Origin: Candidatus Alangreenwoodia gallinarii
GTDB taxonomy: Bacteria > Bacillota > Clostridia > Peptostreptococcales > Anaerovoracaceae
Direction: 5' to 3'
Assembly (NCBI GenBank): GCA_904398315.1
Contig: CAJFPD010000119.1
Span: forward strand, 1-64,000
DNA length: 64,000 nt
Positions within the stretch are counted from its first letter, which is position 1. Every line of letters begins with the position of its first letter. The notes beneath the pieces are model-generated. The model saw only the letters and a program-made list of their open reading frames with translations. It searched no databases and had not been told where the DNA came from. Of the stretch, positions 28,414 through 56,582 are shown one piece after another. The translations under genes and the position numbers were made by a program.

Positions 28414-28620
28414 TTCCGCGGCGCTTCTCTAAGAAATCCTCGCGTACATGATACCTGCTGCTCTTCTTCGCCCTCCGGGCTCGACTCGCAGGGTATGACA
28501 GTCGCGGTAGATTTCTAAGCTCACCGCCGCCTTCCGCGGCGCTTCTCTAAGAAATCCTCGCGTACATGATACCTGCTGCTCTTCTTCGCCCTCCGGGCTC
28601 GACTCGCAGGGTATCATAGT
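28414..28620 (-). repeat. Tandem structured intergenic repeat (83-bp identical blocks 28414-28496 and 28532-28614, period 118 bp)
   Basis: Exact repeat TTCCGCGGCGCTTCTCTAAGAAATCCTCGCGTACATGATACCTGCTGCTCTTCTTCGCCCTCCGGGCTCGACTCGCAGGGTAT; internal stems described in findings. Confidence 0.95.
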
Positions 28621-28652
28621 AAAAAAGCGGACGGGCACAATGCCTGTCCGCT
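28620..28652 (-). terminator. Terminator downstream of hisF
   Basis: Minus strand GCGGACAGGCATTGTGCCCGTCCGCTTTTTTACT. Confidence 0.85.
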
Positions 28653-42589: not shown

Positions 42590-42780
42590 AAAACAAAAGT
42601 ATCCCAAAATGCCGTCTGATCACTAATTCACTCCCTATCTGCTGATAGGTGGGTACTCTGTTCAGCATGTCAGCCTTCCCGTCCGAAGCGGAGGGCCTGA
42701 CTTTCACTGCCGAAACCCGAATTCCCGTGAAAGTATTGTAGGTTAAATTACATGACCATAACGCACATCCTAGGATACTT
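42590..42780 (-). ncRNA. ssrS: Candidate 6S RNA
   Basis: About 180-nt RNA whose ends form a 13-bp closing helix (GTATCCTAGGATG / CATTTTGGGATAC), then TTTTGTTTTTT; upstream TATAAT; core ...GTGCGTTATGGTCATGTAATTTAACCTACAATAC... resembles Firmicutes 6S RNAs. Confidence 0.75.
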
Positions 42781-51160: not shown

Positions 51161-51310
51161 CGTCCGTCCTCCTTTGTCCGCTTCCGGTACCCTGTATCTT
51201 CTGTAAATTAATGTATTCTAAGGATAAATATATATGGAGTTTTCCGTTATATATCTCATTTTACTCCCGATCCTGTCGCCTTCGACGGATCTCTGAGATC
51301 AGGATTCAAT

Positions 51311-51649
51311 GTGAGCAAGTCTGTAAGCCGAGTTCTGTATCAGACAATCATCTTTCTAGACGCGCCGTCACCGGCGCGTTCGAGCGACCTACCTTCCGGG
51401 CCGCGACGGGCCGCCGCTTTAAAAGCCCTTTCTTGGTCTTGCTCCAGGTGGGGTTTACACAGACATGCGCCGTTACCGGCGCACCGGTGAGCTCTTACCT
51501 CGCCTTTTCACCCTTACCGTAAAAACGGCGGTAATTTTCTGTTGCACTTTCCTTGAAGTCGCCTTCACCGGACGTTATCCGGCACCTTCGCCCTGCGGAG
51601 CTCGGACTTTCCTCATCGCGGATGCGATGCGACTGTCTGACTTACTCAC
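51311..51649 (-). ncRNA. rnpB: RNase P RNA (bacterial type A)
   Basis: Minus strand GTGAGTAAGTCAGACAGTCGC... to ...ACAGAACTCGGCTTACAGACTTGCTCAC; internal conserved blocks (GAGGAAAGTCCGAGCTCCGCAGGGCGA; CCCCACCTGGAGCAAGACC). Confidence 0.95.
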
Positions 51650-56420: not shown

Positions 56421-56582
56421 ACTGAAAAACCCCGTGAGACGTGTCCGGAGGACGATGACGAACGGCTGGTTTTTCGTATGCGCAGATTTCTTAGTGAGGC
56501 GCCGAGACCTGCGGCGGTGAGCTTTAGAAATCCACCGCGACTGAAAAATCCCGTGAGGCCGGAGAATCCCTACATTCTCCGG
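56421..56582 (+). repeat. Diverged copy of the structured intergenic repeat, ending in a terminator-like hairpin
   Basis: ACTGAAAAACCCCGTGAGACGTGTCCGGAGGACGATGACGAACGGCTGGTTTTTCGTATGCGCAGATTTCTTAG...CTTTAGAAATCCACCGCGACTGAAAAATCCCGTGAG + CCGGAGAATCCCTACATTCTCCGG. Confidence 0.85.

Follow-up and report, generated by a model that had tools for sequence, protein, structure and literature searches.

The window, a 64,000-nt stretch of DNA from Candidatus Alangreenwoodia gallinarii, carries one structured repeat in the hisF-hisI spacer and another in the dgt-dnaG spacer. A first-pass annotation had described them as copies of a dispersed intergenic repeat with compensatory base changes, forming a selected RNA fold. 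Both copies (28414-28620, minus strand, and 56424-56475, plus strand) read exactly as it had written them. The hisF-hisI site was further found to be a tandem of two units, about 118 nt each, in the order S1-S2-S1'-partial S2; this tandem was missed in the first reading, as were the basal helix and the AG/TAC internal loop of S2, an ∼87-nt two-hairpin insert present in some copies elsewhere, and the spread of copies over the whole genome and the sister species. The dgt-dnaG locus has the order S1-S2-partial S1'. The T-run of the hisF terminator ends directly at the left end of the element, and this T-run is conserved in the sister species, which has no element there. Rfam also places a class A RNase P RNA (51308-51648, minus strand) and a 6S RNA gene (42597-42779, minus strand) in the window.

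Features of the two repeat loci in the window
Feature	Position	Strand	Basis
S1 hairpin, unit 1 of hisF-hisI locus; element's left end at 28620	28563..28620	-	covariance model R1, 76.7 bits; covariation
S2 stem, unit 1 (basal CGCG helix, AG/TAC loop, GATTTCT/AGAAATC, CGCCG/CGGCG)	28503..28565	-	sequence; covariation
S1' hairpin, tandem unit 2, 97% identical to unit 1	28445..28502	-	model R1, 70.6 bits; identity
S2' cut off in apical loop; element's right end, just upstream of hisI	28414..28447	-	sequence; by-eye comparison with unit 1
Intrinsic terminator downstream of hisF (context, outside element)	28621..28652	-	fold of upstream 45 nt, -18.3 kcal/mol
S1 hairpin of dgt-dnaG copy, antisense to both genes	56421..56478	+	model R1, 73.4 bits
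S2 stem of dgt-dnaG copy	56476..56541	+	sequence; row L007 of alignment A2
Partial S1' (left arm only), right end of dgt-dnaG copy	56540..56557	+	by eye; absent from sister species

On the element strand, one unit reads (TT)AC-N-S1-GTA-S2-CCG and spans about 118-128 nt. S1 is composed of an 8-bp helix (P1), a 4-bp helix (P2), a purine internal loop, a short P2b and the P3 hairpin; tandem sheared G.A pairs could form in this internal loop. The S2 stem, which falls into two sub-types (type-I and type-II), has CGCG/CGCG or ACG/CGT as its basal helix, followed by the AG/TAC internal loop, P4 and the apical stem. The left end of the element is fixed (AC-S1) and the right end is ragged, a second unit often following the first and stopping at differing places. 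The second unit resembles the first unit of its own locus: the likeness of S1 to S1' is 89% inside a locus and 72% across loci, with L011 and L091 as exceptions. Gene conversion could be an alternative source of this likeness. Several copies contain the ∼87-nt insert at one fixed point of S1, and full-length inserts were found inside S1 only. We saw the insert at L002, L003, L006, L009, L016, L031, L040 and L045; the perfect, terminator-like palindromes of L046 and L038 look similar to its first hairpin.

The claim of a dispersed repeat was borne out throughout the host genome (G000, a MAG that is 88% complete) and in the other species of the genus examined (G001, the sister species; 92% complete). 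The S1 covariance model gave 35 matches in the former and 21 in the latter, grouping into about 29 and 18 loci, respectively. On host contig C179, the same element with its flanks lies near both ends in opposite orientation (L087, L089); the ends look like an inverted assembly duplicate, and the two copies therefore count as one locus. No matches were obtained in 19 other genomes of the family or order. Across 200 genomes of the family, S1 matches occurred in nine, namely the two of the genus and seven others. Inspection by eye revealed a full S1-S2 unit in G158 and related S1-core hairpins, several in arrays, in G061, G087, G048, G177, G069 and G082. When 392 genomes of the class were scanned with a broader model, five genomes, none of them from the family, had one or two copies, and two of these five (G356 and G421) have, by eye, an S1-GTATG-S2 architecture. 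This composite unit stands at L160 and L161, in another family of the class, and its recurrence suggests that the S1-S2 module pair is old or horizontally spread. In the one-contig genome G447, an S1-like hairpin lies between the apparent 23S and 5S rRNA genes of both rRNA operons (L162, L165). An exact pattern scan over GTDB genomes returned the sister MAG as the sole plausible holder, and the plasmids and phages searched gave no match to the element. The annotation had recognised no Rfam family in the element, and an Rfam 15 scan of the window element together with L002 and L003 gave no match, the best sub-threshold hit being P31 (21.7 bits against a gathering threshold of 40).

The fold and its compensatory changes were confirmed. 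In 13 S1 copies, standard pairs fill 98.1% of 208 pair cells, and both sides have changed in 12 of 16 pairs, compared with 2-3 pairs in slid controls; the 32 double-change cells were equalled in none of 500 shuffles. Fifty-one distinct copies fitted to the S1 model, an alignment that thereby leans towards the structure, are 92.5% paired with double changes in 15 of 19 pairs (114 double-change cells vs 37 in shuffles). The second stem, also claimed by the annotation, is present in both window copies and covaries as well (88.6% paired; double changes in 10 of 19 pairs, slid controls 1-3), its poorly paired cells being mainly due to the two S2 sub-types having been aligned together. Selection on a single RNA strand should favour G.U over A.C mispairs. 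Among the non-Watson-Crick cells we counted 31 G.T and 29 A.C, and in the top 36 copies 15 and 11, with a model fit that is biased towards G.U; the RNase P RNA in the window, a weak control consisting of one sequence, has 6 G.U vs 2 A.C. The orientation of the element to neighbouring genes is mixed, and the dgt-dnaG copy runs antisense to its operon. Given the equal mispair counts and the mixed orientation, we favour a role of the hairpin as single-stranded DNA, or copying between its arms, over a role as RNA.

Site occupancy was compared by searching the coding sequence adjoining 14 host elements in the sister species, where 13 were found. None of these 13 sites holds an intact element there; 12 have no element and one (C39, L150) has a decayed S1 remnant. 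In most site pairs, homology stops at the element's left end or a few bases away: at the terminator T-run at the hisF site, at a leader terminator before ileS (T-box-like, by eye), at the terminator that follows the TPP riboswitch (an Rfam hit) ahead of thiC, and upstream of dnaG at the dnaG site. In C148 and C79a it ends about 35 and 12 nt before the left end. Because the sister spacers are unrelated sequence, exact insertion points are unreadable in these intergenic sites, and loss from the sister species is indistinguishable from gain in the host. At least three intergenic loci are common to both species. The two bases before the left end are TT in 34 of 44 loci when scored by script (6.4% of background AC sites), and by eye in four further rows that the script had misplaced; at least four of the last six bases before the element are T in 23 of 44 loci, against a background of 5.4%. 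Seven elements directly follow a terminator-like hairpin of -15 kcal/mol or better. Sequence comparison indicates that the hairpin-module repeats are probably mobile.

The most precise filled and empty sites lie inside a protein gene. Four copies occupy one site of rpn-type nuclease genes (Pfam PF12784): C139 in the host, and C62, C35 and a fragment, C30, in the sister species. These rpn/PD-(D/E)XK elements (L090 1439-1568, L064 1431-1558, L072 83-210, and L074) sit at the same codon boundary in the two species, and uninterrupted paralogs are found in L108, L111 and L116. The inserted length is exactly 128 nt in C139, C62 and C35, and the unit contains stop codons. Uninterrupted host paralogs (C100, C159, C180) give the empty site, written in gene orientation, as AGA^AGC or AGA^AGT, with CGA^AGC in C100; filled and empty copies coexist in a single genome at the identical nucleotide. 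From this empty site, AC is part of the element, and the joint is compatible with no target-site duplication or with a 2-bp TT duplication. Compared with one another, the rpn elements are 91-96% alike; their likeness to the remaining copies reaches no more than 84%, and the 5' coding half flanking them is 79-85% identical. Either they arrived recently by a site-specific or gene-conversion route, or they are old and tolerated through removal.

Both halves of the rpn genes are conserved and stay open over all the sequence that the contigs provide (C35 runs out 27 codons past the site), and dN/dS of the 5' half between interrupted copies is 0.066-0.141 (dS 0.74-1.5). The shared codon boundary in two species, the open halves and the low 5' dN/dS together raise the prospect, a slim one, that the element is precisely removed from the interrupted gene at the RNA or DNA level. 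If so, it would be a ∼128-nt intron-like or programmed-excision element, for which we know of no counterpart, and precise excision is directly testable in these genes. C62 carries a long in-frame deletion, and the fragmentary element of C30 (L074) is joined to a different reading frame starting MMDPYLKGNKAG, a joint that is either a fusion or a misassembly; rpn gene decay or misassembly is therefore possible. Ribosome bypassing was rejected, as the take-off and landing codons differ (by eye).

We consider it probable that the repeats at 28414-28620 and 56421-56557 are members of a new family of mobile DNA repeats, small and non-autonomous, whose building blocks are hairpin modules. We counted in favour of this reading the copy numbers, site occupancy, rpn empty sites, TT and T-rich sites, end shapes, the within-locus likeness of S1 and S1', the mixed orientation and the equality of G.T and A.C. 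Counted against it were the failure to find a mobilising enzyme, the diverged spacers at the intergenic empty sites, the few elements common to both species, the strong structure kept even between such common sites, and the fact that near-identical strains gave no sign of a recent jump. A dedicated RNA gene or switch at 28414-28620 is unlikely, since there are about 30 scattered copies whose presence varies between related gut Clostridia.

The mobile repeat could work as follows. An enzyme acting in trans would recognise the folded single strand through the purine-loop hairpin of S1 and the AG/TAC stem of S2, and would attach the element's left end at a TT site; copying that runs past one unit or stops early would produce the ragged right end. 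What keeps the arms complementary may be the hairpin's role as substrate, or correction by arm-to-arm copying; in both cases the compensatory changes require no RNA function. Insertion into a spacer or immediately behind a terminator would do the least harm, and any effect on transcripts would be secondary. As to the mobilising enzyme, PF01797 is absent from the two genomes of the genus, a result that is not final at 88% and 92% completeness. As to an autonomous parent element, no transposase was found among the reading frames between neighbouring copies.

The covariation of S1 and S2 is very strong, the loop purines are constant, the S1-S2 order is kept in distant genomes, and differences at loci common to both species are compensated (L009/L062 and L010/L033, by eye). 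All this would suit a functional structured RNA, such as a 3'-UTR stabiliser, a processing site or a protein-binding leader, carried on many transcripts with its fold under selection. However, orientation to genes is mixed, most tested host copies have no same-site counterpart in the sister species, G.U is no commoner than A.C, many copies lie beyond a terminator, and a precise filled/empty pair sits inside a protein gene. We thus regard the functional RNA as unlikely, and the annotation's selected RNA element at these loci is not supported. Hammerhead and twister ribozymes, considered for the GAUGA/GAAG motifs, were rejected on a wrong core and the absence of an Rfam score.

Quite unlikely, too, is a GTAG-REP/BIME family moved by RAYT or IS200/IS605 TnpA that has been lost from the genomes or is missing in the assemblies. 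Many type-I S2 stems begin with GTAG on the opposite strand (CTAC on the element strand; alignment A2), CTAC recurs at the same place in related genera (by eye), the modules form mosaics as in BIMEs, and Y1 transposases occur in two repeat-bearing relatives. However, PF01797 is absent from seven of the nine repeat-bearing genomes, including both of the genus, and neither of the two PF01797 genes in G082 has an S1 motif nearby. The tag itself is confined to most type-I S2 stems, as type-II reads GTGAG and S1 has no GTAG, so that the element fails as a GTAG-REP by its tag. One Y1 transposase gene of G082 has copies of an unrelated repeat, GGGGACGGTTCTCTGTTC, on either side (L142 1057-1108 and 2027-2081). 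RAYT/IS200 was also rejected as the mobiliser, the host genomes having none and one RAYT-like gene of G082 being flanked by a different repeat.

Old immobile repeats whose arms are kept complementary by quasipalindrome correction, that is, by replication errors copying one arm, with no selection, would account for the equal rarity of G.T and A.C, the A-T to T-A double transversions in P1 and the decayed copies, but leave the conserved unpaired bases, the fixed left end, the TT preference and the between-species occupancy difference unexplained, and are highly improbable.

The mobile repeat was compared with known systems. It resembles BOX elements of Streptococcus, which have the structure boxA-boxB(n)-boxC (Croucher 2011, PMC3049150), in being a composite of about 50-nt hairpin modules that vary in number and shuffle between elements, and in being mostly intergenic, gene-free and occasionally gene-interrupting; here S1, S2, the insert and tandem units occur in variable number at about 29 interspersed loci. 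BOX terminal inverted repeats resemble those of an insertion sequence of the same host (PMC3049150), whereas no terminal inverted repeats of the classical MITE kind were seen here (by eye, left ACTGTGAAACC and right CTCACCG mirror GTGA only), the right end is ragged, and sequence and host group differ.

GTAG- and CGTC-tagged REPs and BIMEs (Di Nocera 2013, PMC3733652) are likewise palindromic extragenic repeats with an unpaired tag beside the stem and mosaic arrays. One strand of type-I S2 frequently carries GTAG, and the CGTC class also lacks a dedicated transposase (PMC3733652). In contrast to REPs, the present element is far larger and has a more elaborate structure, with three helices plus a conserved purine loop in S1; its units run head to tail and not as the inverted dimers usual among REPs, its tag is inconstant, and its host genomes are without RAYT. 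A hairpin near the left end, a short T-rich target and the lack of a long target duplication are shared with IS200/IS605-derived elements. TT^AC recalls the TTAC of IS608. The differences are that neither genome of the genus has TnpA, a single base separates the hairpin from the end, the right end is ragged, and AC belongs to the element.

With REP tag, RAYT and terminal inverted repeats all failing, we file the element under neither BOX nor REP/BIME; it is best read as a new family within the known broad kind of BOX/BIME-like structured repeats. The annotation had named a known mobile repeat as one outcome that would overturn its RNA reading: the element is mobile in its pattern, but matches no described family that we found, and a limited literature search yielded no published description of it. 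Site occupancy between relatives and G.T/A.C symmetry are simple tests that RNA-discovery pipelines can use. The Clostridia gain a modular repeat family absent from the literature searched, and a clear case in which textbook covariation probably reflects a mobile structured DNA repeat and not a dedicated RNA.
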